In this document: piece after piece, positions 6,746 through 44,698 of the stretch
How the letters are laid out: every line of letters begins with the position of its first letter
Position numbering within the stretch: position 1 is the stretch's first letter
Assembly: GCA_022425325.1 (NCBI GenBank)
Contig: JAKMFW010000014.1
Span: forward strand, 1 to 63,554
Origin: Acidimicrobiales bacterium
GTDB taxonomy: Bacteria; Actinomycetota; Acidimicrobiia; Acidimicrobiales; Aldehydirespiratoraceae
DNA: 63,554 nt
Reading direction: 5' to 3'
Notes under the pieces: model-generated
Told to the model about the DNA's origin: nothing
The model's database searches: none
Seen by the model: only the letters and a program-made list of their open reading frames with translations
Program-made: the position numbers and the translations under genes

Positions 6746-6996
6746 GGCGTCAGTCCACCCGGCCCGACCGCGCGATGCAAGGCTCAGACCGCACGATCAG
6801 CCAGACTCTGCAGCGATGCGCGTCGACCGCGACGGCGCCATGGCAGCGACGAGAGCGGCCGACAAGCGGCGCGGCGCCGGTCTGCGACGCGATCGAACGC
6901 GCAACCCGACAGAACTGATTCGGAGACGTCGAAGTCCGCCGACGGTTCCAGCCGCCGCAGTGGGCACAGGCCACCCTGCGCTGCCACTGTGATCAG

Positions 6997-15033: not shown

Positions 15034-15079
15034 GGGGTGACCGTAGTGCGAATCAGGCGCAGCGTCCCGAGGGCGACGC

Positions 15080-15766: not shown

Positions 15767-15851
15767 GGCCGCAGTCTGATCGGCTGGCGTCCGCTGTTCG
15801 CACTCGGGCGCCCGACGGCACCTACCAAGCCGGTACCGGCCGAAGAGCCGA

Positions 15852-27611: not shown

Positions 27612-28591
27612 GCGCAAAGCTGCTCGATCGGGTCCTCGAGACGCCGATCGCTCCGAGTTTCACCCGCATCGGCGCCGTCGTCCGGTCTCGAACCGAGCAC
27701 TGGACCGACCTCGACGACTACGACCTCACCGGGCGTACCATCCTGCTCACTGGCGCCACATCGGGCCTCGGCCTTGCCGCAGCCCATCGCCTCGCCGGGC
27801 TCGGCGCCACGCTGCTCGTCGTCGGCCGCAATCCGGCCAAGACCGACGCCGCCTGCGCAGCCCTCCCCTCCCCGACCGGAGCGACCCACACCCCCCTGTA
27901 CGCCGACCTCGGCGATCTCGCCGCCGTCACCGCGCTCGTCGACACGGTGATCGGCTCACACGGCAACCTGGACACCCTCATCCACAACGCCGGCGCACTC
28001 AGCGCCGAACGAACCGAGAATGCCGACGGCATCGAGAGCACCGTGGCCTCCCAGGTGCTCGGGCCGTTCCTGCTCACCGCCCGACTCCTGCCGACGCTGC
28101 GGTCAAACGGCCCCGCCCGCGTCCTGACCATGTCGTCGGGTGGCATGTACTCCGCCGGCCTCACCGTCAACCGCCTCCAGATGAGCGGCCCCGGTTCGGC
28201 CGACCCCTACCGGGGCGCCGAGCAGTACGCCCGGGCCAAACGGGCCCAGGTGACCCTCACCGAGATCTGGGCCGAGAAGTTCGCCGACAGCGGTGTGCGT
28301 TTCCATTCACTCCACCCGGGCTGGGCCGACACACCCGGAGTCGAAGAGGCATTGCCCACCTTTCGCAAGATCGTCGGGCCACTGCTGCGCTCACCGGCAG
28401 AGGGAGCCGACACGCTCGTCTGGCTTGCGGCCGACGACACCGTGGTCGTGGAGAACGGTCTGTTCTGGCACGACCGGGCACCGCGCGCGATCCACCGTCT
28501 CCCTCAGACCAGGCGTAGCGATACGCCCGAGCGGCGTGCCGACCTGTGGGACTGGTGTGTCGCTCAGACCGGAGTCGACCCCGAGGCCTGA
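27608..28591 (+). CDS. Short-chain dehydrogenase/reductase, retinol-dehydrogenase-like
   Basis: A 327-aa SDR with an N-terminal extension of about 40 residues before 'TILLTGATSGLGLAAAHRLA'. 'LIHNAG' replaces NNAG, 'MSSGGM' supplies the active-site Ser, and Tyr-x3-Lys appears as 'YARAKRAQV'. The spacing and the 'SLHPGWADTPGV' segment resemble the DHRS12/retinol dehydrogenase group. It is coupled to the SRPBCC gene. Its 3' end overlaps the convergent desaturase-Rieske gene by 28 bp. The substrate is unknown, probably a hydrophobic alcohol or ketone. Confidence 0.85.
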   Translation: MSAKLLDRVLETPIAPSFTRIGAVVRSRTEHWTDLDDYDLTGRTILLTGATSGLGLAAAHRLAGLGATLLVVGRNPAKTDAACAALPSPTGATHTPLYADLGDLAAVTALVDTVIGSHGNLDTLIHNAGALSAERTENADGIESTVASQVLGPFLLTARLLPTLRSNGPARVLTMSSGGMYSAGLTVNRLQMSGPGSADPYRGAEQYARAKRAQVTLTEIWAEKFADSGVRFHSLHPGWADTPGVEEALPTFRKIVGPLLRSPAEGADTLVWLAADDTVVVENGLFWHDRAPRAIHRLPQTRRSDTPERRADLWDWCVAQTGVDPEA

Positions 28592-29976
28592 TTCGGGACG
28601 GATCGAACCCGGATTCGGTCCGCGTCAATCTGAACCGCATAGGTCGCAAGGCCCTCGGTGACGGGTTGACGGGACGGGCTTCCGTCGGCCAACCGGAACC
28701 GACCGTTGTGTTTGGGACACTCGAGTTCGCCACCGACGATGGCCCCGGCGACGAGCTGCACGCGTCTCGAGTGGGTGCAGATCCCAGCCAATGCGTGCAT
28801 CTCGCCTGACGATGCCCGGCAGACCACGATCGGGCCGTCGGAACCATCGATCGACCGCATGGCCCCGGGTGCCAGGTCGGTGACCGCACAGACATCGATC
28901 CACTCACCGTGTTCAACGGACGTCGCCGCACGGGTCGTCGACGAGACCGACTCGGGGACGACCCGGTCGAGCTCGAACGTCGGCTCAGCCGCCTGACCGC
29001 GCGCCGCGGTCCAGATCTCTCGATACGCAGCCCAGGTCGACGGTGACGGCTCCGGGAGATCGTCTCGGATCTCGCCGTGAAGGGCTGGAAGGTTCCGGTA
29101 CGGCACCGTCGGAAACATGTGGTGCTCGACGTGGTAGTTCATGTTCAGGTAGAGGAACCGGAACACCGGATTCATGTACACCGTGCGGGTGTTCCACCGA
29201 TGATCGAGAACGTCCTCGCGAAGGCCGGCGTGCTGGGTCGTCCCGAAGAAGGCCATCAGCCACGCCCCGTAGAACGTCGGCCCCACCACGAACAGCAGCG
29301 GCACGAGACCGGCCGTCACGACACAGGCGGCGAGCACGCTAACGATCACGACCAGGTAGCCGCGGGCCTCCCATACGACGCGGCGATGCAGCTCGGACGG
29401 GACGTACCCGGCGACGTCGGCGTCGAGTCGACCGCACGCATGGCGAACGATCCGGCGGACCATCGCAGGCACGCTGGTGAGGCCGAGCAGGTTGACGGCC
29501 CATGCCCGAACGTCGATCGGTCGGGGGAACACGATCTCCGCGTCACGCCCGACGACGATCGTGTCGCTGTGGTGGCGAACGTGCGACCACCGCCACACCG
29601 TGGGTTCGCGCAACAACATGAACGAGGCCGGGATGTACACCAGTTCATTGAGCCACGAGGTACGAAACGCCGTGCCGTGGCCACACTCGTGCCACCGAGG
29701 ATCGGCTGCGCCGCCGTACAGAGCGCCGTAGACGGCGAAGGCCGGGATCGCCCACCATGAACCGAGCGCGACCCATGCCCAGCTTCCCGCACCCACGAGC
29801 AACACAAGCCAGAGCACGACGTCGATGCCGGCGCGGAGATCGGACCGTTGGTGGAGTTCGGCAAGCCGAGCCGGGTCGATCGGCGAGCGGTACCACTCGG
29901 CGTCGGCAAGGCCTCGTTCGATCGCGCGCTGCGACTCGGGCCCGGTGAGCGAGTAGTCCCGAGTCGGCGCCGTCAT
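28564..29976 (-). CDS. Fused fatty-acid-desaturase/Rieske ferredoxin oxygenase (MocD-MocE-like)
   Basis: A 470-aa two-part protein. Residues 1-330 are a membrane di-iron desaturase/hydroxylase with the three His boxes H96ECGH100, H132VRHH136 and H282VEHH286 and several membrane helices. Residues about 365-470 are a Rieske [2Fe-2S] domain with C400-x-H402 and C420-x2-H423. Separate MocD (desaturase-like) and MocE (Rieske-like), with reductase MocF, serve O-demethylation of the rhizopine 3-O-methyl-scyllo-inosamine (family knowledge). The ATG shares a base with the aldolase TGA, so it is the last gene of the inositol operon, supporting an O-methyl-inositol substrate (inference). No reductase gene was seen. 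Confidence 0.85.
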   Translation of the reverse strand: MTAPTRDYSLTGPESQRAIERGLADAEWYRSPIDPARLAELHQRSDLRAGIDVVLWLVLLVGAGSWAWVALGSWWAIPAFAVYGALYGGAADPRWHECGHGTAFRTSWLNELVYIPASFMLLREPTVWRWSHVRHHSDTIVVGRDAEIVFPRPIDVRAWAVNLLGLTSVPAMVRRIVRHACGRLDADVAGYVPSELHRRVVWEARGYLVVIVSVLAACVVTAGLVPLLFVVGPTFYGAWLMAFFGTTQHAGLREDVLDHRWNTRTVYMNPVFRFLYLNMNYHVEHHMFPTVPYRNLPALHGEIRDDLPEPSPSTWAAYREIWTAARGQAAEPTFELDRVVPESVSSTTRAATSVEHGEWIDVCAVTDLAPGAMRSIDGSDGPIVVCRASSGEMHALAGICTHSRRVQLVAGAIVGGELECPKHNGRFRLADGSPSRQPVTEGLATYAVQIDADRIRVRSVPNQASGSTPV

Positions 29977-30843: not shown

Positions 30844-31680
30844 TCAGGGGCGCACCTTGGGGAGTTCCCAGCCGAACTTGTCCCAGTCCTCTTCGATCCA
30901 GGTGTAGGCATCGTGGAAGCACGGCGGGGTGACACGTTCACCGTCGACGAGTTCGCCTGCCAGATAGTTGAGAAAGAACATGTGGCTCCCGGGCGCAGCT
31001 GCCGTCGAGTGGAAGCCCTTGGTGACGATGGCGCAATCGCCGTCGCCGGCCGTGAGGACTTCGTCGAAATCCTCGTCGGTCCGCCAGTTGCGGTGCATAC
31101 AGAAGCCGTCGGACGGGTCGAGTCGGAAGTAGTACGTCTCCTCCAGATACGGCGAACCGTTGAAACCGTCATGGCAGTGCGGCGGCCAGCCCGACCACGA
31201 ACCACGAGGCACATAGACCTCATAGAGGATGAGTCGCTCGGCATCGATCGGCGGCGCCAGCACGTGGTTGACCTGGCGGTAGGCGGCGCCGCCCCCGCGA
31301 AGCTCACTGGACATGTCGGCCGGTTCGATGATGCGCGCCGGGTAGCGGCCCTCGGCCGGTGCTGAGCCGATGGCGAACTCGAATGCCTCGTCGATGGCGA
31401 CGATCTCGATCGCGACGCCGGGTGGGGCGTAAGCGATGCGGGGCATCTCCTCGAACACCGAGGTGCGAGACAGGGTGGTCTCGATGCCGCCGACCTTCAC
31501 GGTGGCCGAGCCGCTGATCGGCACGACTGCGGTCTCCTGGTCGGCGAGCAGGTGGTCGTGGCGTTCGCCCGGCTTCAGGCCGACGATGGCGAAGCTGAGA
31601 TAGGTCCACCCCGCCGACTCGGGCGTGATCTCCATCTGGACGGTCTTCGACCAGTCGGGCGTGAAGAGGTGTTCGTTCAT
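30844..31680 (-). CDS. iolB: 5-deoxy-glucuronate isomerase IolB
   Basis: A 278-aa double-cupin protein that isomerises 5-deoxy-glucuronate to 2-deoxy-5-keto-gluconate. The C-terminal cupin holds likely metal ligands in 'SGWPPHCHDGFNGSPYLEETYYFRLD' (positions about 165-192), with the later His in 'VTKGFHSTAAAPGSHMFFL'. 'YEVYVPRGSWSGWPPH' is a clear IolB signature. It overlaps the iolG stop by one base and precedes the aldolase by 1 nt, so the order iolG-iolB-iolJ is tightly coupled. Confidence 0.94.
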   Translation of the reverse strand: MNEHLFTPDWSKTVQMEITPESAGWTYLSFAIVGLKPGERHDHLLADQETAVVPISGSATVKVGGIETTLSRTSVFEEMPRIAYAPPGVAIEIVAIDEAFEFAIGSAPAEGRYPARIIEPADMSSELRGGGAAYRQVNHVLAPPIDAERLILYEVYVPRGSWSGWPPHCHDGFNGSPYLEETYYFRLDPSDGFCMHRNWRTDEDFDEVLTAGDGDCAIVTKGFHSTAAAPGSHMFFLNYLAGELVDGERVTPPCFHDAYTWIEEDWDKFGWELPKVRP

Positions 31681-32684
31681 CAGATGATCTCCGTGATCAG
31701 GACAGGACGGCCTTCGTCCATCGAGCGCTTGGCGGCCATGCCAATGACGAGCGGGGCTCGGCCGTCGGCACCGCTGATCGGTGTCGGGGTGCCGTTCTCG
31801 ACGGCGGCGACGAATGCCTCCCACTGATCGAGATAGCTGGCGGTGTAGCGCTCGAGGAAGAAGTTCTGGAGTGGAGGTTGGCGGTAGCCCCCGGCGGTGG
31901 CCACGAGGGCGTTGGCGTCGTGGTGGTTGGTCGACTGGGCCATGCCACCGCTGCCGAAGGCCTCGACCCGCTGGTCGTAGCCGTAGACAGCACGACGGCT
32001 GATGTCGATCGTGGTGAGGCAGCCGTTCTCGTGGGTGAGAACGATGACGGCGGTATCGACATCACCGGCCTGCCCGATCGCGGGATCAACCCGAACGCGG
32101 CCGAGGGCGTAGACCGACTCGACCTCGCTACCGGTCACATAGCGGGCCATGTCGAAGTCGTGGATCGCCATGTCGTTGAAGATGCCGCCCGAGACCTCGA
32201 TGTAGGCGATCGGCGGCGGGGCCGGATCACGGCTGGTGATGTTGACGACCTCGACATCACCGATCGAACCATCGGCGACGGCATCGGCAACCGCCTTGTG
32301 GGACGGATCGAACCGGCGATTGAAGCCGATGTGCAACGGAACGCCGGCAGCCTCGACCGCTGCGAGCGCCCGGTCGACTTCAGTGACGTCGAGGCTGATC
32401 GGCTTTTCGCAGAAGATCGCCCGACCGGCTTCGGCCGCCGCGATCATGACGTCGACATGGGTGTCGGTGGAGGTGCAGATCGCGACCGCGTCGGCGTCGA
32501 TCGCCAGTGCGGCCTTGAGGTCGGCGGCGACGGGAACGCCGAGTTCGGCACCGACGTTCTCGGCCGCTTCAGCGACGACATCGAACACGCCGACGACCTC
32601 CGCACCGGCGACCCGGCGGTGAAGATAGGCGGCGTGCATGGAACCGATTCGGCCACAGCCGAGCACGACGAAACGAACGGTCAT
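31680..32684 (-). CDS. iolG: Inositol 2-dehydrogenase (IolG), Gfo/Idh/MocA family
   Basis: A 334-aa NAD(P)-dependent dehydrogenase with 'VVLGCGRIGSMHAAYL' (Rossmann), the 'CEKPISLD' motif carrying the catalytic-site Lys, and 'HIGFNRRFDPSH', the typical IolG block. 'GGIFNDMAIHDFDMARYV' holds the Asp/His pair expected to bind and deprotonate the inositol hydroxyl. It should oxidise myo-inositol to 2-keto-myo-inositol. Of the four Gfo/Idh/MocA genes in the window this one looks most like true IolG and lies beside iolB, overlapping it by one base. Confidence 0.88.
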   Translation of the reverse strand: MTVRFVVLGCGRIGSMHAAYLHRRVAGAEVVGVFDVVAEAAENVGAELGVPVAADLKAALAIDADAVAICTSTDTHVDVMIAAAEAGRAIFCEKPISLDVTEVDRALAAVEAAGVPLHIGFNRRFDPSHKAVADAVADGSIGDVEVVNITSRDPAPPPIAYIEVSGGIFNDMAIHDFDMARYVTGSEVESVYALGRVRVDPAIGQAGDVDTAVIVLTHENGCLTTIDISRRAVYGYDQRVEAFGSGGMAQSTNHHDANALVATAGGYRQPPLQNFFLERYTASYLDQWEAFVAAVENGTPTPISGADGRAPLVIGMAAKRSMDEGRPVLITEII

Positions 32685-33688
32685 CGGGAAACTCCGTCTT
32701 TGTCGATGGAAGATGGGCCGGGGGAATACAGCGCCGGTTTGGCCGGCAGATCGACGCCGACGGCGACGCCGTCGGCGGCAGCCGACGCGGCAGCGGCCGC
32801 GACCACGGCCTGGGCGGCGTAGCCGTCCCATGCCGACGGACCACGGGCGGCACCCACCTCGACCGAGTCGAGGAAGTCACGCATCTCGACGCGGTAGGTG
32901 TCGAGGAACGGCGAAAACCAGTCGTCGCCGATGGCTCCGGCAACCATGCCGTCGGCCCGGACCGCGGCCCGGAGAGGCTCAGCCGTAATGACATTGCCGC
33001 GCTCTGCCGTGACCTCGACCGAGACCTCGTAGCCGGTGGCGATGTCGTCGAACTCCAGCACGGCGACTGCGCCGCCCGCCAGGCGACACGTGGCGACGAT
33101 CATCCGAGTATCGGCCCCTCCGGCAATGACGGACGTGGCGACCGAGACGATCTCGTCGTCCCCGAGCCATCGAACGGTGTGGATGTCGTGGATGATCGAC
33201 TCGACGAGCATCTGCGGCACCGTGCGTGAACCATCGTTGGTGTTGCGATGCACGCACCGGATGTGTCGCGCCGCACCGAGGTGCTCGAGGGCGCCGGCGA
33301 CCTGGGTGTGGCGTTCGTCGTAGACCCGCATGAAGCCGAGCTGGATCAGGCGACGACCCAGTGCGACCTCGGTGTCGACGATTTCGCGGGCGTCGGCGAG
33401 TTCCACGGTGAGTGGCTTCTCGGCGAGGATCGGCACGCCGCGTTCGAGGCCGGCCATCACGTATCGATGGTGAAAGCGATCGGGACAGGCGATGACGAGC
33501 GCATCAATCTCACCGATGCGATCCATGCCCTCGGCAACCCACTCGCAACCCAGTTCGTCCGCGAGCGCCTGACCGACGTGGTCGTCGGGGTCGGCGACCC
33601 AGGTGAGTTCGGCACCGGCGAGATCTGCGACATGGCGGGCATGACAGGCCCCCATCCCGCCGACACCGATGACACCGACGCGCGTCAC
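32681..33688 (-). CDS. Gfo/Idh/MocA family oxidoreductase
   Basis: A 335-aa paralogue of IolG: 'VGVIGVGGMGACHARHVADL', 'LAEKPLTVELADA', 'QLGFMRVYDERHTQV' and 'VESIIHDIHTVRWL'. Two overlapping 4-nt junctions join it to iolG downstream and the SDR upstream. It probably oxidises another inositol stereoisomer (scyllo-, chiro-) or an inosamine, as MocA does, but the substrate cannot be read. Its C-terminal 40 residues are Ala-rich and divergent. Confidence 0.88.
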   Translation of the reverse strand: MTRVGVIGVGGMGACHARHVADLAGAELTWVADPDDHVGQALADELGCEWVAEGMDRIGEIDALVIACPDRFHHRYVMAGLERGVPILAEKPLTVELADAREIVDTEVALGRRLIQLGFMRVYDERHTQVAGALEHLGAARHIRCVHRNTNDGSRTVPQMLVESIIHDIHTVRWLGDDEIVSVATSVIAGGADTRMIVATCRLAGGAVAVLEFDDIATGYEVSVEVTAERGNVITAEPLRAAVRADGMVAGAIGDDWFSPFLDTYRVEMRDFLDSVEVGAARGPSAWDGYAAQAVVAAAAASAAADGVAVGVDLPAKPALYSPGPSSIDKDGVSR

Positions 33689-34512
33689 GACTGCAACCCT
33701 GGCGGAAGCTCACCGAGTTCAGGTCCGGGACGGGGTTCGGCGGCGACACCGAGAATCGTCTGATCCCAGTCGATGTCCTGGCCGGTCAGGAACCCACTCT
33801 CCGGCGAGCACAGGTGCACGATCGTGTGCGCAATCTCGTCGGGCTTGATGAGCTTGCCCATCGGCTGCACGGCCTCGGCCCGTTCGAGCCAACCGTCGGT
33901 CGCGCCTTCGTAGCGACGCTGGGTGATGTCCTCGGCGGGCGTGTCCATCCAGCCCGGGTTGAGCATGTTCACTCGAACCCGGTGGCGCATGAGCGTGAAG
34001 GCCATGTTGCGGGTGGCGGCGACGAGCGCCATCTTCGACGCCGAGTACGGCAAGAGATTCGGAGCCCCGCCGTGACGGGCGACCGAACCGATCAGCACGA
34101 TCGAACCGTCGACATCCTCCCGCACCATGAGCTTGGCCGACTCCTGGGCGACGAGACAGGCGGCGCGGACGTTGAGGGCCATCATCTCGTCCCACATGGC
34201 GGCCGTGGAATCCCACACCGACCCGCGGAACGTGGCTGCTGCGCAGTTGACCGCGGCATGCAGCGTCCCGAAGGTCTCATCGGCGGCAGCCACGCAGCGT
34301 TCCGGACCGTCAGGATCGGCGAGATCGACCGGCACGAACACGGCCCGGCAGCCGTCTCCCGTGAGCGACGCCGCGGCTGCTTCACCCTTCGCCTGATCGC
34401 GGCCGACGAGCAGCAGGCCGCTCGCACCCTTTTCCTTGAGCAGGGCTGCGGTGGCGTAGCCCAAGCCCTGGGAGCCTCCCGTGATCAAGGCGACACGCTT
34501 GTCAAAGCTCAT
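33685..34512 (-). CDS. Short-chain dehydrogenase/reductase in inositol operon
   Basis: A 275-aa classical SDR with 'ALITGGSQGLGYATAALL', 'AVNCAAATF', active-site Ser in 'VLIGSVARH', Tyr-x3-Lys in 'YSASKMALV' and 'NPGWMDTP'. It should be an NAD(P)-dependent polyol or ketone oxidoreductase acting on an inositol-derived intermediate (inference from operon). It lies 4 nt after iolD and overlaps the next Gfo/Idh/MocA gene by 4 nt. The C-terminal tail 'EPRPGPELGELPPG' is proline-rich and extends beyond the usual SDR end. Confidence 0.88.
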   Translation of the reverse strand: MSFDKRVALITGGSQGLGYATAALLKEKGASGLLLVGRDQAKGEAAAASLTGDGCRAVFVPVDLADPDGPERCVAAADETFGTLHAAVNCAAATFRGSVWDSTAAMWDEMMALNVRAACLVAQESAKLMVREDVDGSIVLIGSVARHGGAPNLLPYSASKMALVAATRNMAFTLMRHRVRVNMLNPGWMDTPAEDITQRRYEGATDGWLERAEAVQPMGKLIKPDEIAHTIVHLCSPESGFLTGQDIDWDQTILGVAAEPRPGPELGELPPGLQS

Positions 34513-34516
34513 GGCG

Positions 34517-36370
34517 TTACCAACCTGCTCGCTGATCGGACTTGCCCTCGTCGAGCTCGGCTCGGGCCTCACGCACCGATTCGTACGCCGACACCTCAGG
34601 CACACCAACCTCCCACCATGAGCCACCTTCGGTCCACGAATTCTGGTGTGTCTGGAGGGTGATGACCGTCGTGCGGTCGGCTTCCTTGGCCCGCTTCCAT
34701 GCGGCCTCGAGTTCATCGATGGTCGAGACGGTCTCGGCGTTGCAGCCCATGGCGGCGGCGTGAGCGGCGAAGTCGACCCGAACCTCCTCGACGATTCTGG
34801 AGTCGGCGAGCAGGTTGTTGAAGGGGGCACCACCCTGGTTGACCTGCAGCCGATTGATGACGGCAAAGCCACCGTTGTCGCAGACGATCACGATCATCTT
34901 GTGGCCCGACAGCACCGAGCTGTAGAGGTCGCTGTTCATCATCAGGTACGAACCGTCACCCACGAAGACGGTGACGTCCTTGTCCGGCAATGCCATCGCC
35001 GCCCCCCAACCACCGGAGATCTCGTAGCCCATGCACGAGAAGCCGTACTCGCAGTCGAAGCTGTTGAGCGCTTTTTGACGCCACCCGTTGTTGACCTCAC
35101 CCGGGAAACCGCCTGCGGCGGCGAGGGCGAAATCGTCGGGGCCGGCCAACCGATCGACGACACCGACGACCTGGGCGTAACTCGGGAGTTCGTTCCCGTT
35201 GGCGTCAGGCGCGGCGATCTTGTCGATGTAGGCGTGGTACTGCGACACCTCGGCCGACGCCGTGTCGCTCCACGACTCAGGCGCCCGGTAGTTCCCGATG
35301 CGACCGGTCAGGTCCGTGAGCGCTTCTCGTGCGTCGCCAACAACCGGAAGGGCCAGGTGTTTGGTGGCGTCCCAGCGGGCCGTGTTGATGCCGACGATCT
35401 TGACGTCGGCATTCTTGAAGACGGTCCACGAGCCGGTCGTGAAGTCCTCGAGTCGAGTGCCGACCGCCACGACGACATCGGCCTCGGCGGCCAGATTGTT
35501 GGCCGCCTCGCAGCCGGTGACACCGATCGGACCGGCGTACATCGGGTGTGAAGCGAGAAGCGATGCCTTGCCGGCGACCGTCTCGACGACGGGGATGTTG
35601 TGGGTCTCGGCGAATGCGGCAAGTTCGGCTTCGGCAAAGGAGTAGTGCACCCCGCCACCGGCGATGATGAGCGGCTTCTCGGCGTTCTCGATCGCGGCGG
35701 CCGCCGAGTCGAGTTGATGGATGTCGGCCCGCTGACGGGTCAGATGGTGGATCTGCTCATCGAAGAAGCGGACCGGGAAGTCGTAGGCCTCGGCGGCGAC
35801 GTCCTGAGGCAGACCGATGAAGGCCGGGCCGCAGTCGGCCGGGTCGAGCATCGTCTGCACCGCGTGGGGCAGCGACGACACCACCTGCTCGGGCTTGATG
35901 ATGCGATCCCAGTACCGGCTGACCGAACGGAACGCATCGTTGACCGTCGTCGAGGGCTCACCGAAGTGCTCGACCTGCTGCAACACCGGATCAGGCAGAC
36001 GGCTGGCGAAGGTGTCACCCGCAATCAACAGCAACGGGATGCGGTTGGAGTGCGCTACTCCAGCGGCGGTGACCATGTTCGTCGCGCCAGGGCCGACCGA
36101 CGAGGTCGCCACCATGATCTGGCGACGACGCACGGTCTTCGCATAGGCGGTGGCAGCGAGCGCCATGCCCTGCTCGTTCTGTCCGCGCCAGGTCGGCAGT
36201 TCGTCTTGATGCTGCTCGAGCGCGTGACCCAGGCAGGTGACGTTGCCGTGACCGAAGATCGCGAACACCCCCGGGAAGAGCGGGGCGATGCTGCCGTCGG
36301 GCATCACGGACTTCTGAGCGATGAGGTACCTGACGATGGCGTCGGCCGTTGTGAGTCGGATCGTCTCCAT
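34517..36370 (-). CDS. iolD: 3D-(3,5/4)-trihydroxycyclohexane-1,2-dione hydrolase IolD
   Basis: A 617-aa thiamine-diphosphate enzyme that opens the cyclohexane-dione ring to 5-deoxy-glucuronate. The catalytic Glu lies in 'GQNEQGMALAATAYAK' near residue 66. The central domain runs through 'AEADVVVAVGTRLEDFTTG', and the ThDP-binding motif is 'VFVGDGSYLMMNSDL' with 'VCDNGGF' after it. 'FGHGNVTCLGHALEQH' and 'NSWTEGGSWWEVGVPEVS' distinguish IolD from acetolactate synthase. It is central to the operon and marks it as inositol catabolism. Confidence 0.96.
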   Translation of the reverse strand: METIRLTTADAIVRYLIAQKSVMPDGSIAPLFPGVFAIFGHGNVTCLGHALEQHQDELPTWRGQNEQGMALAATAYAKTVRRRQIMVATSSVGPGATNMVTAAGVAHSNRIPLLLIAGDTFASRLPDPVLQQVEHFGEPSTTVNDAFRSVSRYWDRIIKPEQVVSSLPHAVQTMLDPADCGPAFIGLPQDVAAEAYDFPVRFFDEQIHHLTRQRADIHQLDSAAAAIENAEKPLIIAGGGVHYSFAEAELAAFAETHNIPVVETVAGKASLLASHPMYAGPIGVTGCEAANNLAAEADVVVAVGTRLEDFTTGSWTVFKNADVKIVGINTARWDATKHLALPVVGDAREALTDLTGRIGNYRAPESWSDTASAEVSQYHAYIDKIAAPDANGNELPSYAQVVGVVDRLAGPDDFALAAAGGFPGEVNNGWRQKALNSFDCEYGFSCMGYEISGGWGAAMALPDKDVTVFVGDGSYLMMNSDLYSSVLSGHKMIVIVCDNGGFAVINRLQVNQGGAPFNNLLADSRIVEEVRVDFAAHAAAMGCNAETVSTIDELEAAWKRAKEADRTTVITLQTHQNSWTEGGSWWEVGVPEVSAYESVREARAELDEGKSDQRAGW

Positions 36371-36403: not shown

Positions 36404-37582
36404 TCAGTCGCGCGGGCTCAGCCGCTCGACGGTTTCCCACTTCTCGGACTTCCACGAGCGCAGCATTGCGTCCTGCACGCTGACATAGTCGATCGCCTCC
36501 GCGAAGCCGGGCGTGTGCTGGCGACCCTTAGCGATCGACGACAAATATTCGAACTCCTCGATGACCTTGAGGTCCTCGTACCCGATCGGGTTGGCGTCAC
36601 CCGGCACAAAGTGGCCGTGATACGGGAAGCGGTCACCGGAGTAGACCGTCTTGTAGCCGAGTTCGGGCTCGGAGGCGCGAAACAGCTTCAGTTCGTTCAT
36701 CGTCTCGAGGTTCCACATCAGCGATCCCTTCGTGCCGTACACCTCGAACGCGCATTGGCTCTGCGGACCCATGATCGAGCGACTCGACTCGAACACGCCA
36801 CGGGCACCGTTCTCAAACACGCACATCGCGCCGAAGTAGTCCTCGTTCTCGACCGTCCCGGTCGGGTCGCCGGGCTTGCCGACGTCGTAGTGGGTGCCGC
36901 CCGGTTTGGGCAGTGGGCGCTCAGGAATCTGGATGTGGCCCATACCGACGACCTTCTCGATACCGCCGATCAGCATGTGGGCGAGGTCGACCGAGTGGCT
37001 GAGAATGTCCGACGACACGCCGTGGCCGGCCTCGTCGAGCATGAAGCGCCACGAGAGCAGACCCATCGGATCGGCGCCGTACATCGAGAAGAAGCGACCC
37101 CGGTAGTTGGTGATCTCACCGAGTTCACCAGCGTCGATCAACTGCTTGGCGTACTGCACCAGCGGCGCCCATCGGTAGTTGTATCCGACACCTGTGATCA
37201 CACCGGCCGCCCGCGTGGCGGCTTCGATGCGAACGGTCTGTTCGGGTGTGCCACCCACCGGCTTCTCGCAGAACACATGCTTGCCTGCTTCGGCGGCAGC
37301 GATTGCAATCGGCTCGTGCAGCATGTTCGGCGCGCAGATCACGACGACGTCGATGTCGTCGTTGGCGATCAGGTCGTTCCAGTCGACGGAGCCGTGACCA
37401 AAGCCGAAGTCGGCGACGGCTTGATCGACCCGCGACGCCATGTTGTCGCTGATCATCACCAGTTCGGCGTCGAACTCACGCTCGGGGAACAAGGTCGGGA
37501 TTCGCAGGATTGATCGGGTATGGGCCTGGCCCATCCAACCGAAGCCGACGACGCCGACCCGGATCTTCTTGCGTGCACTCAC
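36404..37582 (-). CDS. Gfo/Idh/MocA family oxidoreductase
   Basis: A 392-aa dehydrogenase, longer than IolG. 'VGVVGFGWMGQAHTRSIL', 'FCEKPVGGTPEQT', 'VGYNYRWAPLVQYAKQLI' and 'HGVSSDILSHSVDLAHML' mark the family. The 'GWMGQAH' start with two-part substrate domain resembles scyllo-inositol/inosamine-type dehydrogenases. It starts with GTG, overlapping the TGA of the 2-hydroxyacid dehydrogenase (GTGA), and lies 33 nt upstream of iolD. Likely substrate is an inositol isomer or derivative; this is inference. Confidence 0.88.
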   Translation of the reverse strand: MSARKKIRVGVVGFGWMGQAHTRSILRIPTLFPEREFDAELVMISDNMASRVDQAVADFGFGHGSVDWNDLIANDDIDVVVICAPNMLHEPIAIAAAEAGKHVFCEKPVGGTPEQTVRIEAATRAAGVITGVGYNYRWAPLVQYAKQLIDAGELGEITNYRGRFFSMYGADPMGLLSWRFMLDEAGHGVSSDILSHSVDLAHMLIGGIEKVVGMGHIQIPERPLPKPGGTHYDVGKPGDPTGTVENEDYFGAMCVFENGARGVFESSRSIMGPQSQCAFEVYGTKGSLMWNLETMNELKLFRASEPELGYKTVYSGDRFPYHGHFVPGDANPIGYEDLKVIEEFEYLSSIAKGRQHTPGFAEAIDYVSVQDAMLRSWKSEKWETVERLSPRD

Positions 37583-38520
37583 GAGGAACGTCCCTCCAGA
37601 ACTTCGTAGACATGGGGATTGACACAGTCGACAGGACGCTCGCCGGCAAGGACCTGGCGGGCGTTCTCGATCGCGCCGGAGTACATCCGCACCCGGCCTT
37701 TGTCGGTTGCCGAGGCGATGTGCGGGGTGACCACGACGTTGTCGCGGTTGAGGAGCGTGTGCGCGGGATCGAGCGGTTCGGGGGCGGTGACATCGAGGCC
37801 GGCGGCGTACACCTTGCCGGAGTCGAGCGCGTCGACCAGCGCCTGCGTATCGATCACACCGCCGCGGGCCGCATTGACGATGACGACACCGTCCTGCATT
37901 CGAGCGAACGCCGCCGCGTCGAGCAGGTTCCGAGTCTCGTCGGTGAGCGGGGTGTGCATCGTGATGACCCGGCTCTCGTTCAGGATCGTGTCGAGATCGA
38001 CCTGTTCGTGTTCGACGACCTCCACATAGGGGTCGCAGACGATGACGCGCATGTCCATCGCGGCGCACATGCGGGCGACTCGACTGCCGATCCGGCCATG
38101 ACCGACCACCCCGATGGTGGCACCGCTCAACTCGATGCCCTCGTGCGCGGCGTAGAAGTCCTGTCGACCAGCCCGCAGGCGGGCGACATTGTTGGCGGTG
38201 AACTTGGACGCCGCCATGAGCAGGCTCATCGTGTGCTCGGCGGTCGAGATCGACGGCGCGTCGGGTGTATTGCACACGACGACACCTTGCGCGGCGGCGG
38301 CATCGAGATCGACGGTGTCGAAGCCGATGCCCGACCGCGAGATCACCTCGAGCATGGCGCCCGTGGCGATGCGTTCGGCGGGCCATGGCGACGCGCCAGC
38401 GATCGCAGCGCGACACGTCGGAAGCTCGGCGTCGTCCGGGCCGACCACCTCCCAGTCCGGGCCGAAGAGTTCGTCGAATCCTGGCGGAAGCGGGCGATCG
38501 ATGAAGATGCGTTCAGGCAT
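37579..38520 (-). CDS. D-2-hydroxyacid dehydrogenase (phosphoglycerate dehydrogenase-like)
   Basis: A 313-aa NAD-dependent dehydrogenase: 'GIGFDTVDLDAAAAQGVVVCNTP', 'TIGVVGHGRIGSRVA', catalytic Arg in 'NAARGGVIDTQALVDAL' and the Glu/His pair of 'DVTAPEPLDPAH' and 'VVTPHIASAT'. The domain order is that of SerA-like enzymes without the ACT domain. It is not part of the textbook Iol pathway. Sitting between iolC and a Gfo/Idh/MocA gene with a GTGA overlap, it may reduce or oxidise a keto acid from a side branch. Confidence 0.88.
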   Translation of the reverse strand: MPERIFIDRPLPPGFDELFGPDWEVVGPDDAELPTCRAAIAGASPWPAERIATGAMLEVISRSGIGFDTVDLDAAAAQGVVVCNTPDAPSISTAEHTMSLLMAASKFTANNVARLRAGRQDFYAAHEGIELSGATIGVVGHGRIGSRVARMCAAMDMRVIVCDPYVEVVEHEQVDLDTILNESRVITMHTPLTDETRNLLDAAAFARMQDGVVIVNAARGGVIDTQALVDALDSGKVYAAGLDVTAPEPLDPAHTLLNRDNVVVTPHIASATDKGRVRMYSGAIENARQVLAGERPVDCVNPHVYEVLEGRSS

Positions 38521-38541: not shown

Positions 38542-39495
38542 TCATCGAGGATCACGCTCCTGAAGGAAGGCGTCGACCTCGGGACCGGTCGGCATGTCGT
38601 CGGCACACATCATGCGGCCGGCGACGATGGCGCCTGCGGCGTTGCCGTACCGAACGGTGTCGGGCAGTGACCAGCCCTCGAGGAGGCCGTGGCAGAAGGC
38701 GCCACCGAAGGCATCGCCCGATCCGAGTCCGCAGACAACCTCGACCGGGTAGGGCGAAAGCCGTTCGCGAAGCTGTGGCGTGGCGACCATGAAACCGTCG
38801 CCCCCGAGCTTCACGATCGCGGCGTCGAGGCCGCGATCGAGCATGCGGTCGGCTGCTTCGTCGGGGTCATCGGTGCCGACTGCGACCTCGCACTCCTTGC
38901 GGTTGCCGATGGCGATGGTGACATGGTCGAGCATCGGCGAGATCGCCGCATGGGCCTGCTCCTCGCTGTCCCAGAACATCGGACGCCAGTCGAGATCAAG
39001 GACGGTGTGATGCTTCCGGTTGCGACGCTGCAACAGTTCGGTGACGGTCGTGCGGCTGCGGTCGAACGCGAACCGGCTCGCCGGGATCCAGAGGATGCGC
39101 GCCGTGTCGACTGCGTCGAGAAGCGGTGGCGTGGTCTCGATCTCCATGTCGGGAGCGGCAGGCTCTCGATAGAAGATGATCGTCGGATCCTCTGGCGGGT
39201 CGAGTTCGGCGAACGCCAACGGTGTTTTCAAGGTCGGATGGGTGGCAACGAAGCGCGGGTCGACATTGAACGTGTTCTGCAGTGCATCGGTGACGTACCG
39301 GCCGAATTGGTCGTCGCCGACGCGCGTCGCGAGCGCAACGGCATGGCCGTAACGAGCGGTGGCGACGGCGACGTTCGTGGCCGTTCCGCCGATGGACTTT
39401 CGGAAGGTCGTGACGTCGGACATCGTCACGCCGGGTTGTTCGGCGTAAAGGTCGACGCTCACCCTTCCGATCGAGAGAAGATCGAGCGACGACAT
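38542..39495 (-). CDS. iolC: 5-dehydro-2-deoxygluconokinase IolC
   Basis: A 317-aa PfkB/ribokinase-family sugar kinase that phosphorylates 2-deoxy-5-keto-gluconate. 'SIGRVSVDLYAEQPGV' is diagnostic of IolC, 'SIGGTATNVAVATARYG' is the N-terminal PfkB motif and 'VVCGLGSGDAFGGAFCHGLL' the C-terminal one with the catalytic Asp. 'LDLDWRPMFW' is also IolC-typical. It ends where the kinase domain ends and has no DUF2090 aldolase extension; the aldolase is a separate gene about 8 kb downstream. A 116-bp gap separates it from the transporter ATPase gene. Confidence 0.93.
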   Translation of the reverse strand: MSSLDLLSIGRVSVDLYAEQPGVTMSDVTTFRKSIGGTATNVAVATARYGHAVALATRVGDDQFGRYVTDALQNTFNVDPRFVATHPTLKTPLAFAELDPPEDPTIIFYREPAAPDMEIETTPPLLDAVDTARILWIPASRFAFDRSRTTVTELLQRRNRKHHTVLDLDWRPMFWDSEEQAHAAISPMLDHVTIAIGNRKECEVAVGTDDPDEAADRMLDRGLDAAIVKLGGDGFMVATPQLRERLSPYPVEVVCGLGSGDAFGGAFCHGLLEGWSLPDTVRYGNAAGAIVAGRMMCADDMPTGPEVDAFLQERDPR

Positions 39496-39611: not shown

Positions 39612-40400
39612 TCACGAGTTCTGGGCCTGGGCGATCTCGTGCTGCAGCGCCTCGAGTTCGGCACCGCCGGCCATGAGCGAGGTGAGCTCGTTCTGGCTGA
39701 TGTCTTCCTTGGCGAAGTTGCCCATCGACTGGCCGCGGTTGAGGATCACGAACCGGTCGCCGACCGGGTACGCGTGGTTCGGGTTGTGGGTGATGAAGAT
39801 CACGCCGAGTCCGCGCCTGGCGGCTTCGACCACATAGCGCAGCACGACACCCGACTGCTTCACACCGAGCGCTGACGTGGGCTCATCGAGGATCAGCACC
39901 TTCGCGCCGAAGTACACCGCGCGGGCGATGGCGACGGACTGGCGTTCACCGCCGGAGAGCGTGCCGACCGGCTGCTCGGTATCGCGGATGTCGATGCCCA
40001 TCTTGGCCATCTCTTCTTTGGCGATGCGCTTCGCCTCGGCCTTGTCGATCCACTCGAGGGGCCAGACGCCCTTGGTTGGCTCGGAACCGAGGAAGAAGTT
40101 CCGCCACACCGACATGAGCGGCACCATGGCGAGGTCCTGGTACACGGCGGCGATGCCGGCGTTGAGCGCCTCACGCGGGTTCTTGAAGTTGACCTCCTGA
40201 CCCTCGAGCTTGAAGGTGCCCTCGGAGTGCTCGTGCACCCCGGCCAGGATCTTGATGAAGGTCGATTTGCCGGCGCCGTTGTCGCCGAGCACACAGGTGA
40301 CCTGCCCGGCGCGCACCTCGGTGGTGACGCCTTGGAGGGCGATGATGTTGCCGTAGAACTTCGAGATGTTCTCGAGTTCGAGCAATGGCGTATCGGACAT
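39612..40400 (-). CDS. Sugar ABC transporter ATP-binding protein (single-domain type)
   Basis: A 262-aa ABC ATPase with Walker A '[14 protein letters not shown]', Q-loop 'AVYQDLAMV', signature '[15 protein letters not shown]', Walker B '[12 protein letters not shown]' and H-loop 'FITHN'. It has one nucleotide-binding domain, as in FrcA-type CUT2 importers, rather than the fused pair of RbsA. A strong ribosome site (GAGGAGG) precedes ATG 40400. It lies 15 nt downstream of the large permease gene and should power uptake of an inositol-type ligand. Confidence 0.94.
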
Positions 40401-40415
40401 CGTGAACCTCCTCGA

Positions 40416-42563
40416 TCAGCGGGCCGACTCGGCCTTGGTGCGGATGTAGTTGTTGGCGACGACAGCGAGCAGGAGGATGCCGCCGACGAAGACGAACCTC
40501 CAGTCGGAGTTCCACCGGGCGGACGGGATGCCCTGCACGGCCATCGCCATGATCAGGGCACCGATGCCAGCACCGATGGTCGAGCCGTAGCCGCCGGTGA
40601 GCGCCGTGCCACCCACGACGGCGGCGATGATGTATTCGAACTCCTCGCCGTCGCCCGTGCTGGCCTGGATGGTGTTGAGGCGGAACGCCAGCAGCACACC
40701 GACCAACCACGCAGCGGCCGAGACCACCATGAAGAGTTGGGTCTTGGTGCGGGCAGCGGGGACACCGACCTGGCGGGCGGCTTCCTTGTTGCCGCCGACG
40801 GCAAAGGTCCAGCTGCCGAAGCGGGTCCGGGCGAGCACCCAGGACACGACAGCGGTGAAGCCGAGGAACCACAGGATGCGGACGCTGTACTTCACGATCG
40901 AGCCGCCGACCTCGGCCTCCTCGGTGGTGACCCAGCCGAGACGGGCGACCATGCCGACAACGATGAGCAGCACAGCGGAGAGCAGCATGTTGCGGGCCGT
41001 CGTATCGGCCGAGGTGTCCGTGAACCGGCGCACCTCGAAGCGCGTGTTCGCGATCGCCCAGACGGCCATGATCGCAGCGAAGGCGAGCATGAAGCTGAAG
41101 GCCTCGGCCCGGAACTTCGGAGCCGACGACTCGCTCTGGACGAAGAAGGCCATGACGACGAGTGCGACCGACGTGAGCAGCAGCAGCGCCGAACCGGCCC
41201 GGTCCGAGTGCCGTCGGCTGCGGGTGGCAGCGGTGATCAGGCTGACGAAGGCCGCGCCGGTGAGGGCGATGAAGATGATCGCCCGGGCGCCCTGCTCGGT
41301 GGAGAGGTTGAGGAAGCCGAGGGTGGCGAGGATCGCCACGATGCCCGTGGAGATGACTCGGGCCCTGGCCTCTCCGAGGGCGGCGGCCGCTGCCGCCGAG
41401 ATGGCCGACCCGATGACGTTGCCTGCGGCGGCGCCACCGGTGCCGGCCGACCAGATCATCGCCACGAGGGCGACAACGATGGCGATGGCGAGGCTGGTGC
41501 CACCACCGAGATCGAAGGCTTCGGTGAGGTCCTCACCGTTCTGCGCATCCATCCAGGTGCCGACGAGGATGGCGGCGACGAAACAGATGACGCCGGCGAT
41601 GAGCGGTGCCGTCACCCCGTCGGGGCGACCGGCTGTCGTGCCGCTCTGCGTGTGCGGGGCGTAACGCCACACGCCCCAGCCGATGAAGCCGACGAGCATT
41701 CCCGCGCCGATGAGGGCAGCACCGATGGTGTTCGCGCCGGCGCCATCGGTGTTGTGGAGTTGCCAGACGCCGGCGAGGCCGAGGGCGATACCGACGACCA
41801 CACCGATGAGGCCGGTCGGGTTCATCACATCCTTGCGGCGGAAGTGGAATTCGTAGACGGCGAGCACGACAAGCGTGAGGCCGGCGAGGGTACCGATGGA
41901 GTACACCCAGTCGCGGGAGTCCCAGACGTGCTCGTTGCGGATCCACTCCCCGGCGAAGACCTTGTCGAGCAGGCCGTATCCCTTGTCGCTGACGCCATTT
42001 TCCTCGGCGTAGATGGCGAGGTCGTCGAGCTTGCCGACCTGAATCTGATCGACGATCAGCTTCGAGAAACCGAGCTTGGCGCCCTTCAGAACGAAGAAGG
42101 ACCCCAAGGTCACGATGAAGCTCGGGAGCGATGTTCGGTTGACGAGGAAGCCGTTCCACCAACCGAGTCCAAGGGCGGCGAGCAGTGAGATCGGAAGGGC
42201 GACCCAGAGACTGAAACCTGCGCCGGCTGCCTCGCCGGCGACGTCGCGGACCAACAAGATGGTCAAGATGCCGAGCGCGCCCGTGGCGGCGCCCGACGAG
42301 AGATCGAATTCGCCGCCGATCATCAGCAGCGCGACGGCGACCGCCATGATGCCAAGCGGTGCGGCGGCCTGGTCGAGGATCGACTGGGCACCACTGGCCT
42401 GGCCGAACTTGACCGAGACGGCCCAGAAGAAAACCCACACAGCGACAGCGCCAATGGCTGCACCGATCTCGGGTCGAACGAGTGCTCGCTGGAAGACCCC
42501 TCGGTACGCCAGCCGCTCGTCGGCGTTCGGGGCTGCGCTGGCCCCGGCTGTGGTGTCACTCAT
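40416..42563 (-). CDS. CUT2-type sugar ABC permease split by a large membrane insertion
   Basis: A 715-aa permease, twice the usual 330-350 aa. Residues about 30-175 match the N-half of BPD_transp_2 permeases ('VALLMIGGEFDLSSGAA', 'WWNGFLVNRTSLPSFIVTLGS' in parts). Residues about 557-710 match the C-half ('TRFGSWTFAVGGNKEAARQVG', 'IAAVVGGTALTGGYGS'). Between them, residues about 210-555 hold roughly ten extra hydrophobic segments. The reading frame is unbroken, so this is an insertion and not two genes. ATG 42563 follows a G-rich ribosome site. It works with the adjacent ATPase and binding protein. Confidence 0.9.
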   Translation of the reverse strand: MSDTTAGASAAPNADERLAYRGVFQRALVRPEIGAAIGAVAVWVFFWAVSVKFGQASGAQSILDQAAAPLGIMAVAVALLMIGGEFDLSSGAATGALGILTILLVRDVAGEAAGAGFSLWVALPISLLAALGLGWWNGFLVNRTSLPSFIVTLGSFFVLKGAKLGFSKLIVDQIQVGKLDDLAIYAEENGVSDKGYGLLDKVFAGEWIRNEHVWDSRDWVYSIGTLAGLTLVVLAVYEFHFRRKDVMNPTGLIGVVVGIALGLAGVWQLHNTDGAGANTIGAALIGAGMLVGFIGWGVWRYAPHTQSGTTAGRPDGVTAPLIAGVICFVAAILVGTWMDAQNGEDLTEAFDLGGGTSLAIAIVVALVAMIWSAGTGGAAAGNVIGSAISAAAAAALGEARARVISTGIVAILATLGFLNLSTEQGARAIIFIALTGAAFVSLITAATRSRRHSDRAGSALLLLTSVALVVMAFFVQSESSAPKFRAEAFSFMLAFAAIMAVWAIANTRFEVRRFTDTSADTTARNMLLSAVLLIVVGMVARLGWVTTEEAEVGGSIVKYSVRILWFLGFTAVVSWVLARTRFGSWTFAVGGNKEAARQVGVPAARTKTQLFMVVSAAAWLVGVLLAFRLNTIQASTGDGEEFEYIIAAVVGGTALTGGYGSTIGAGIGALIMAMAVQGIPSARWNSDWRFVFVGGILLLAVVANNYIRTKAESAR

Positions 42564-42628
42564 CGGTGACGGCTCCCCCCCCAATGGAATGTGTCCGTTT
42601 TGTGGCGCCTCGAGGACGCCCGATCGGG

Positions 42629-42723: not shown

Positions 42724-43734
42724 TCAGCGGGTGCCGGCGGCCGAGAGTTCCTTGACCGCAGCGGCGTTGTCCGGGGTCACGAATCCCGGACCGGTGAGCA
42801 CCGGAAGACCGCCGCCCGCCTGGTTGGCGTTGGTGGCCTCGAGGTACATGAGGACGACCGGCAGGTAGCCCTGGAGGTACTGCTGCTGATCGACGGTGAA
42901 GGCGACATCGCCGGCCTCGATCGCATCGAGCAGCTCCGGCGTCATGTCGAAGCCACCGATGGTGAGGTCGATGCCCAGGTCCTGAGCGGCGGCGAGGGCC
43001 GACATGGTGATGACCGGACCGACGCCGAGCACGCCGTCGATCGCCGGGTCGGCGTCGAGGACGGCCTTGATGCCGTTGATCTGCTCGGTCTGGTCGGCGT
43101 CAAGACCGACGAACTGGGTGATGACTTCACCGTTGAAGGTCTCTTCGAGACCGGCGCAACGCTCAGTGAGGCCGACGTTCGACTGCTCCTGCTGGGCGCA
43201 AAGGACCTTGGTGGCACCGAGGTCATTGAACCGCAGACCAGCGCCCTGACCGGCGACGTCCTCGGACTGACCGATGTGGGTGGTGGCACCGATGGTGGTG
43301 TAGTCGTTCAGGCCCGAGTTGAGCGTGTAGACCGGGACGCCAGCAGCAACGGCGTCCTGGAGCGGGCCGATGAGCTGGTCGGGCGACGGCAGCGACGCGG
43401 CGATGCCGTTCGAGCCCTCACCGATCGCGGTCTCGATGTCGGAGACCATCTGACCCGGGTCGTTGTTGCCGGGCATCCACACACAGTTGACGCCGACATC
43501 GGCGCAGGCCGCTTCCATGCCGCGCTTCACGACGGACCAGAACGGGCCGTCGTCGGAGTGCGTGATCATGTGGAAGGTGAGGTCACCGCCCTGGGTCTGC
43601 TCGACCGCTTCTTCTTCGGTGCTTGCGCTGTCGTTCGAGTCGGCGCTCTCGCTGCTGCTGTCGTCGTCACCGCACGCAGCGGCAACGAGCACGATCGCAA
43701 GCAGCACTGCCAACCAATTGAAGTGCTTCTTCAT
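42724..43734 (-). CDS. Sugar/inositol ABC transporter substrate-binding lipoprotein
   Basis: A 336-aa periplasmic-binding-protein-like lipoprotein (Peripla_BP_4). The signal ends in 'LVAAACGDDDSS', followed by an acidic Ser/Glu linker to about residue 48. The domain begins 'LTFHMITHSDDGPFWSVVKRG' (in parts) and contains 'GLDADQTEQINGIKAVL' and 'IDLTIGGFDMTPELLDAI', as in ribose, inositol and rhizopine (MocB) binding proteins. A good GGAGG site precedes ATG 43734. Neighbouring catabolic genes indicate an inositol or inositol derivative as ligand (inference). Confidence 0.92.
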   Translation of the reverse strand: MKKHFNWLAVLLAIVLVAAACGDDDSSSESADSNDSASTEEEAVEQTQGGDLTFHMITHSDDGPFWSVVKRGMEAACADVGVNCVWMPGNNDPGQMVSDIETAIGEGSNGIAASLPSPDQLIGPLQDAVAAGVPVYTLNSGLNDYTTIGATTHIGQSEDVAGQGAGLRFNDLGATKVLCAQQEQSNVGLTERCAGLEETFNGEVITQFVGLDADQTEQINGIKAVLDADPAIDGVLGVGPVITMSALAAAQDLGIDLTIGGFDMTPELLDAIEAGDVAFTVDQQQYLQGYLPVVLMYLEATNANQAGGGLPVLTGPGFVTPDNAAAVKELSAAGTR

Positions 43735-43786: not shown

Positions 43787-44698
43787 TCACGAGGCCTTCT
43801 GACCTGCGGTGAACTCCGCATTGATAGCACGGAGATATTCGATGCTCCGGAGAACATCGACCTTGGGGCCTTCACCCGGCGCCGGTTCGCCGTCGGTGAT
43901 GGCCGCGTCCTGTTCGAGCACGTACCAGCCGTCGTAGCCGCTGCGTTCGAGCTCGGTGACGACCTCGGCGACCGGCACATCGCCGTCGCCCATCGGGCAG
44001 AACATGCCGTTCTGCACACCCTGCATGATCGACTGCTCGCCACGAAGGACCGGTGCAGCGAGATCGAGGTGCACGTCCTTGAGATGGACATGCGCGATGC
44101 GATCACGAGCATCGGCCAGGAACTCGACGGGGTCGTATCCGCCGATCATCAGGTGGCCCATATCAAAGGTCCAGCCGACCTGGCTGCGCTCGAGCACGTT
44201 CTTCACGTCGCTCGGCCGCTCGATCATCGTGCCGAGATGGGGGTGGATCGCCTGCGACATGCCATGGGCGGCGACGATCTCCTCGATCTCGTCGAGCATC
44301 GCCGCAGCGTAATCCCAGGCCGCCGCATCGATCTCCACGCGGGGGGCCCAGTCGAAGCTGGTCACCATCGACGTGATGAACAGGTGACCGCCGGCTCCAC
44401 CCATCAGCGCTGCGGCCCGTTCGGCAGCAGCAAGGCTGGCGTCACGCTGCGCGGGGTCGTGGAGCACGACGGGAACGAAGCCGCCGATCATCTCGAGGTC
44501 GTAGCGGGCGCACACCTCGCGCAATTCACCGGGGTCGGTCGGGAGATAGCCGTCGGATCCGAGTTCGGTGGCGGCAAGCCCGAGATCCTGCATCTCGGAA
44601 AGCACACGGTCGACCGGAAGTTCCAGCCCCCAGCCGGGGACTTCGCAGACACCCCAACTGATGGGTGCTCCGGCAACGCGCTGGAAGAAACTGCTCAA
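43787..44698 (-). CDS. Inosose dehydratase-like TIM-barrel protein (IolE/MocC type)
   Basis: A 303-aa sugar-phosphate isomerase/epimerase-family protein. 'GAPISWGVCEVPGWG' is characteristic of IolE and of MocC from rhizopine catabolism. Metal-ligand candidates lie in 'ATELGSDGYLP', 'AIHPHLGTMIE', 'WTFDMGHLMIGG', 'AHVHLKDVHL' and 'WYVLEQDAAI'. IolE dehydrates 2-keto-myo-inositol to the diketone used by IolD. It starts at TTG 44698, the only start near the fold, and is the first gene of the operon behind the double palindrome. IolH or IolI-like epimerase activity is the alternative. Confidence 0.88.
   Translation of the reverse strand: MSSFFQRVAGAPISWGVCEVPGWGLELPVDRVLSEMQDLGLAATELGSDGYLPTDPGELREVCARYDLEMIGGFVPVVLHDPAQRDASLAAAERAAALMGGAGGHLFITSMVTSFDWAPRVEIDAAAWDYAAAMLDEIEEIVAAHGMSQAIHPHLGTMIERPSDVKNVLERSQVGWTFDMGHLMIGGYDPVEFLADARDRIAHVHLKDVHLDLAAPVLRGEQSIMQGVQNGMFCPMGDGDVPVAEVVTELERSGYDGWYVLEQDAAITDGEPAPGEGPKVDVLRSIEYLRAINAEFTAGQKAS

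Follow-up and report, generated by a model that had tools for sequence, protein, structure and literature searches.

A desaturase-Rieske fusion gene in a variant inositol operon

We analyzed a contig of an Acidimicrobiales bacterium (GenBank assembly GCA_022425325.1, contig JAKMFW010000014.1), the whole 63,554-nucleotide stretch of which is called the window below, and focused on a minus-strand gene that encodes a MocD-like desaturase/oxygenase fused to a Rieske protein (P0001; 28564..29976). The fusion proved genuine and conserved; it is of MocD descent and forms part of a variant inositol operon. Its open reading frame spans exactly 28564-29976 and encodes 470 amino acids plus the stop. An FA_desaturase domain (PF00487) at residues 73-315 (29032..29760) scored 124.4 bits against a Pfam cut-off of 29.7, and a Rieske [2Fe-2S] domain (PF00355) at residues 358-446 (28639..28905) scored 56.3 bits against a cut-off of 20.3. 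The sequence and its alignment placed three histidine boxes in the first domain, namely, H96-x3-H100 (29677..29691), H132-x2-H135-H136 (29569..29583), and H282-x2-H285-H286 (29119..29133), and the alignment placed the cluster ligands of the second, CTH...CPKH, at residues 400-423 (28708..28779). The three boxes and the ligands C400-x-H402 and C420-x2-H423 were invariant among 47 aligned fusion proteins, including that of the window, as were D258-H259-R260 and R264-T265-V266 of the desaturase half; the desaturase motifs were kept or nearly so once rhizopine MocD was added. Hydrophobic stretches were found at residues 45-75 and 199-245, and the protein is probably located in the membrane.

A first-pass annotation, made from the DNA letters and their open reading frames, had described a desaturase and a Rieske domain in one polypeptide, and the intact frame, domain scores, and metal-ligand motifs bear this out. 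Because the identical two-domain architecture occurs as a single open frame in 31 other loci, a chance fusion is excluded. The fraction of G+C at third codon positions (GC3) was 0.81 in the fusion gene versus 0.81-0.83 in its neighbors, so nothing points to recent acquisition from a foreign source. At its 3′ end, the gene overlaps a converging plus-strand short-chain dehydrogenase/reductase (SDR) gene tail to tail by 28 bp (28564-28591).

The fusion gene is the last of 14 codirectional genes that begin with an IolE-like gene at 44698 and are separated by gaps of no more than 139 bp. The junction reads ...GACTGATGACG..., and the stop TGA of the preceding aldolase gene and the ATG of the fusion gene share base 29976 (TGATG), the one-base overlap also reported in the first-pass annotation. 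That aldolase, previously called IolJ-type, is actually of the DeoC/LacD type (PF01791; 29976..30851; Pfam/NCBIfam), and it is probably the 2-deoxy-5-keto-gluconate-6-phosphate aldolase of the pathway, a function that we infer. Upstream of it on the same strand lie the genes for IolB (30844..31740; 218 bits in NCBIfam versus a cut-off of 205; start codon uncertain), the inositol 2-dehydrogenase IolG (31680..32681; 413 versus 355), a second IolG-like Gfo/Idh/MocA dehydrogenase below the IolG cut-offs (Gfo2; 32681..33688), an SDR oxidoreductase of the PRK06198 type over its cut-off (33685..34515), and IolD (34517..36370; 855 versus 715). The final six genes, from the SDR gene to the fusion, overlap one another, subject to the IolB start. 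Farther upstream are a third Gfo/Idh/MocA dehydrogenase nearest to levoglucosan dehydrogenase but below its cut-off (Gfo3; 36404..37570), a D-2-hydroxyacid dehydrogenase resembling phosphoglycerate dehydrogenase (PGDH) and below the cut-offs (37579..38520), and the kinase IolC (38542..39495; 325 versus 300). These are preceded by a sugar-type ABC transporter ATPase (39612..40400) and permease (40416..42584), both below the cut-offs of named models, a solute-binding protein (42724..43734), and the IolE-like protein (43787..44698; 163 bits, below the cut-off of 290).

The cluster resembles a myo-inositol (iol) operon in that IolG, IolB, IolC, and IolD score above their NCBIfam cut-offs, with IolE below its own, and in that an aldolase is present. 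It differs in having three Gfo/Idh/MocA genes, the PGDH-like gene, and the oxygenase, and in the DeoC/LacD type of its aldolase. The best NCBIfam model for the solute-binding protein was that of the rhizopine-binding protein (NF052284), at 189.5 bits, below the cut-off of 420, and BLAST against MocB of the rhizopine reference locus described below gave 22% identity (E = 0.002); by these scores it appears to be only a distant relative of the rhizopine-binding protein. A promoter and terminator scan found nothing beyond the level of shuffled sequence, so the continuity of the operon rests on gene spacing and conserved gene company.

Conservation of the fusion within iol operons

Our genome scan covered 80 loci, the best 80 of at least 589 relatives and hence biased toward the window's kin, and the queries for iol genes in them (E 1e-15) were the proteins of the window itself, a choice that also favors those kin. 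At least two of IolB, IolC, IolD, IolE, and IolG were encoded in the fetched stretch of 22 of the 31 loci carrying a fusion of the window's clade, some of which are cut by contig ends (e.g., L020, L021, and L054), and the remaining 49 scanned loci had none of the five. This is consistent with the link to inositol catabolism that the first-pass annotation had drawn. The next recognized operon gene after the fusion was iolG in 18 of the 22 iol-linked loci, with others possibly intervening, and in those 18 the recognized operon gene before the fusion encoded IolD, an SDR, or a Gfo/Idh protein. The window's order of aldolase and then fusion recurred only in L003 and L005. The place at the operon's end pointed out earlier is thus correct for the window but atypical of its relatives. 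Given the conserved gene company and the varied order, the fusion gene is a member of the operon whose position there has changed.

Among 198 genomes of the class, which is Acidimicrobiia to judge from the window's nearest named relatives, a MocD relative (E 1e-40) was present in 7 and IolB (E 1e-20) in 34. Five genomes had both, each pair within about 2 kb (Fisher P = 0.0019), and when only the fusions were counted, four of five genomes carried IolB (P = 0.0033). This set overlaps the loci above, as the gene order of G008 equals that of L004 and the gene order of G031 equals that of L054. In one of these five genomes, G123, separate MocD, MocE, and MocF genes head an iol operon, and its MocD falls in the proteobacterial clade; this is a second, separate link of the MocD family to inositol catabolism.

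Kinship with MocD and MocE

As the rhizopine reference we used L121, a locus on pSymA of Sinorhizobium meliloti HM006. Three features identified it as a rhizopine locus: a perfect moc-box at 6908, whose start lies 93 bp before MocD; a MocR-type regulator that combines GntR and aminotransferase domains; and a dehydrogenase of the MocA type. The moc-box motif was taken from PMC10107442. A Rhizobium leguminosarum locus (L119) has the same layout and a moc-box with two mismatches. Over 348 aligned columns, the desaturase half of the fusion shared 45% identity with L121 MocD, and in a phmmer search with this half, complete MocD family members scored at least 300 bits versus no more than 38 bits for other desaturases. 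A quick maximum-likelihood tree with 111 rows placed 98 MocD family rows in one clade with 99% SH-aLRT support against 13 lipid-type desaturases, which have long branches and comprise only phmmer matches at E 1e-3 or better. A single 99% clade held the window's protein together with the 33 fusion proteins nearest to it, larger proteins of about 760 residues formed a separate one (41 rows and L053), and the rhizopine MocD pair lay among separate-gene proteobacterial forms. The larger proteins were labeled as triple by open reading frame length, which mislabeled Rhizobium etli L117, where the gene is split and a long frame lies upstream, and leaves the 41 rows given here; L068, L120, and L122, being broken or fragmentary, were removed, and the repeat loci L001, L002, L088, L091-L096, L112, L130, and L131 were left out. 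The MocD kinship suggested in the first-pass annotation is therefore supported by both identity and phylogeny, with the desaturase half placed apart from the lipid-type rows, the opposite of the grouping that the annotation had named as refuting it, and an identity as a membrane-lipid desaturase was rejected.

The kinship of the other half is looser. The Rieske half was 34% identical to L121 MocE over 94 aligned columns, and the MocE model TIGR02377 is passed by the rhizopine MocE proteins of L121 and L119 (185.5 and 178.1 bits) but not by this half, whose score is given below; it has a predicted MocE-like role, yet it is not MocE by this test. In summary of the comparison with the MocD-MocE-MocF systems of Sinorhizobium and Rhizobium, the window shares a MocD-clade desaturase, a Rieske partner, and a link to inositol catabolism, but it has the two components in one chain inside an iol operon and has no nearby MocF-like gene, MocR, or good moc-box. 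A search of the window for MocR at E 1e-10 found no homologue, and the best moc-box match in it had 7 mismatches of 22. Rhizopine, one of the substrates suggested in the first-pass annotation, is accordingly not favored as the specific substrate.

Electron supply and larger relatives

A MocF-like reductase gene was present in 20 of 23 separate-gene MocD loci (all except L085, L110, and L124). The sole Reductase_C-type reductase of the window's genome is encoded on a different contig, C56 (L111:4727-5929), and shares 36-41% identity with each of three MocF proteins. As three MocF queries found no MocF-like gene in any iol-fusion locus, some of these being cut by contig ends, the earlier description of the window's fusion as a self-contained enzyme was rejected.

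The description fits better the larger relatives of about 760 residues from Verrucomicrobiota, Bacteroidota, and Acidobacteriota (L028:9962-12250, L037:9974-12235 of Wenyingzhuangia, L056:9965-12259, and similar loci), for which we found no established name. These begin with a desaturase and then a Rieske domain, as the window's protein does, and are 42-47% identical to it, but they differ in having a third, FAD/NADH domain after the Rieske domain and in lying in sugar or polysaccharide loci rather than iol operons. Pfam found the third domain in six of the eight scanned, with an NqrF-like reductase domain in the L028 protein; the other two, L067 (689 amino acids) and L053 (483 amino acids), are shorter and had no third domain by Pfam, and for the remaining relatives of about 760 residues it was deduced from length. 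Their 76 same-strand neighbor proteins, counted with no background control, included 10 aldose 1-epimerases, 9 TIM-barrel isomerases, 4 URO-D proteins, 3 RhaT transporters, 3 Gfo/Idh dehydrogenases, 2 rhamnosidases, and other glycoside hydrolases.

One-carbon genes near the family

Downstream of mocDEF in L121 lie a PanB-like gene (ketopantoate hydroxymethyltransferase family) and a gene for PurU, which scores over its cut-off. Ten of 15 plasmid MocD loci carried a PanB-like gene (none in L084, L086, L114, L115, or L124) and three carried PurU (L121, L119, and L086), although these 15 are a chosen, partly redundant subset of 348 records and many of the 10 PanB-positive loci are near kin. Where PanB-like proteins occur in fusion loci (L003, L006, and L017), they are about 59% identical to that of L121; in L003, the nearest relative of the window, the gene comes directly after the fusion, and in L006 and L017 it is placed between iolC and the gene for the transporter ATPase. 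In G157, a PurU gene on the opposite strand and genes for a Cgl0159-type aldolase, a PanB-like protein, and PhyH are found some 14 kb ahead of the fusion, upstream of the gene for the operon's ABC permease. Judged from gene content, these one-carbon genes and the formaldehyde dehydrogenase mentioned below fit, but do not show, the release of formaldehyde from a methyl ether.

We also noted other methyl-transfer and oxygenase genes around the family. The nearest relative, L003, encodes a URO-D-type methyltransferase, a corrinoid protein, and a homocysteine S-methyltransferase (14111-16921) near the fusion and its PanB-like gene, perhaps a second, corrinoid-based route of demethylation. A MetE-like gene (Meth_synt_2) of a methyl-transfer family adjoins the fusion outside an iol operon in L108 (6005-7177) and L054 (1576-2748), which are from the same genome. 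On plasmids of Bradyrhizobium (L126:3905-8437) and Shinella (L125:4964-8583), sugar-type clusters encode a sterol desaturase, a MocE-like or Rieske ferredoxin, and an FAD reductase, in Bradyrhizobium also with a PanB-like gene; these sets are a possible analogue with another oxygenase.

Proposed function and alternatives

The best-supported role of the fusion is O-demethylation of an imported methylated cyclitol, which we consider probable overall; we infer its iron content, reaction, substrate, reductase, and order of events. According to this proposal, a methyl-ether cyclitol such as pinitol or ononitol would be imported by the operon's ABC transporter and met by a MocD family nonheme iron oxygenase fused at its C terminus to its own Rieske ferredoxin, which would take the role of MocE. 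A separate NAD(P)H ferredoxin reductase, for which the protein on contig C56 is a candidate, would pass electrons to the tethered Rieske domain, and the histidine-box center, taken as a two-iron site, would activate O2 and hydroxylate the methyl carbon. The resulting hemiacetal would fall apart into the free hydroxyl and formaldehyde, and the bare cyclitol would enter the pathway of IolG, IolE, IolD, IolB, IolC, and the aldolase.

Several observations weigh against this assignment. The demethylase role of MocDEF itself reportedly rests on the oxygenase model of Bahar and colleagues from 1998. As for the setting, no MocF-like reductase was found in the operon or in any locus of the fusion clade in searches with three MocF queries, other reductase types not having been searched for, and the Rieske half scored 58.6 bits against the TIGR02377 cut-off of 136.15. 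Relatedness is not taken into account in the Fisher and hypergeometric figures, although the iol-linked loci are kin to one another. Nine of the 31 fusion loci have one core iol gene (L010 and L034) or none (seven loci), and two of the seven MocD carriers, G031 and G071, lack an IolB match; inositol is therefore not the sole setting of the family.

The one-carbon genes are also unevenly spread. In the fetched stretches of the 31 fusion loci, a PanB-like gene occurs in only three and PurU in none, and the window's genome had no PanB-like gene at E 1e-30 and no PurU match in a search made without a positive control. Its mycothiol-dependent formaldehyde dehydrogenase, though over its cut-off, is a general detoxification enzyme and lends weak support. 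Across the class, PanB-like proteins with 55-61% identity to that of L017 occur in 3 of 198 genomes (G008, G157, and G071), all MocD carriers (chance, 2.7e-5), but the choice of 55% as the limit followed sight of the gap from 55% down to 41%, and at E 1e-30 the same query matches 43 of the 198 genomes, including four of the seven MocD carriers. In the other 40 matching genomes, among them the MocD carrier G075, the relatives are only 33-41% identical.

Part of this evidence would serve other readings. The fusion might oxidize a cyclitol elsewhere than at an O-methyl group, by C-H hydroxylation or by oxidation of an inosamine or a deoxy-inositol. The operon evidence applies equally to such a reaction, the window's genome lacks a PanB-like gene at the threshold given, and the arginine hydroxylase GntB, a desaturase superfamily member with a small polar substrate, gave a weak NCBIfam match (29.2 bits versus a cut-off of 380); with MocD kinship and the one-carbon genes in part of the family pointing to one-carbon loss, however, we regard this as unlikely. 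Quite unlikely in our estimate is an O-demethylase for a methylated sugar or for a noncyclitol O- or N-methyl compound, with the iol operon serving mixed substrates. The sugar genes beside the larger relatives (epimerases, isomerases, sugar transporters, and glycoside hydrolases among the 76 partners) and the fusions outside iol operons would suit it, but in the window IolG, IolB, IolC, and IolD each exceed the cut-off of their model, and the rhizopine-binding model is the one closest to the binding protein. That the fusion is a desaturase or hydroxylase of membrane lipids that happens to lie in the operon would explain the match to the generic FA_desaturase model but is highly improbable, given that the class's lipid-type desaturases score at most 38 bits with this half and lie outside the 99% clade, that the genome has two FA_desaturase genes besides the fusion, and that operon membership is conserved.

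Published work bears mainly on the separate-gene systems. The mocDEF genes belong to rhizopine catabolism (PMC10107442, PMC6668481), the mocD promoter is rhizopine inducible (PMC10107442), and rhizopine use requires IolD and IolA, as cited in PMC5789663. Clusters of mocDEF also stand beside LacI-type regulators, and an inositol derivative was proposed there (PMC3538637), and Pseudomonas syringae has mocDEF but lacks the remainder of the moc operon (PMC5132102); the mocE of PMC6341043 belongs to mannopine catabolism. Among the matches listed for a single literature collection, and with no bearing beyond it, nothing relevant appeared on desaturase-Rieske fusions or on such sugar demethylases, and the titles and abstract openings on pinitol or ononitol breakdown named no bacterial demethylase outside rhizopine work.

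Implications

More tentatively than for the role of the fusion itself, we suggest that it may represent one branch of an unrecognized family of membrane nonheme iron O-demethylases for methylated cyclitols and sugars. Such a family would span several phyla and three architectures, namely, separate genes, oxygenase-ferredoxin fusions, and oxygenase-ferredoxin-reductase fusions, with the last being self-sufficient. Methylated inositols are common in plants, and a multipart P450 system acts on 6-O-methyl-galactose, which offers a comparison for single-chain O-demethylases acting on the methyl sugars of polysaccharides. If the proposal is true, the fusion gene would be a marker for the use of O-methyl cyclitols in this class and would explain genes whose plasmid relatives carry only the annotation "fatty acid desaturase family protein." The old oxygenase model of rhizopine catabolism would become testable with a simpler enzyme, and the larger relatives of about 760 residues would offer single-protein sugar O-demethylases.

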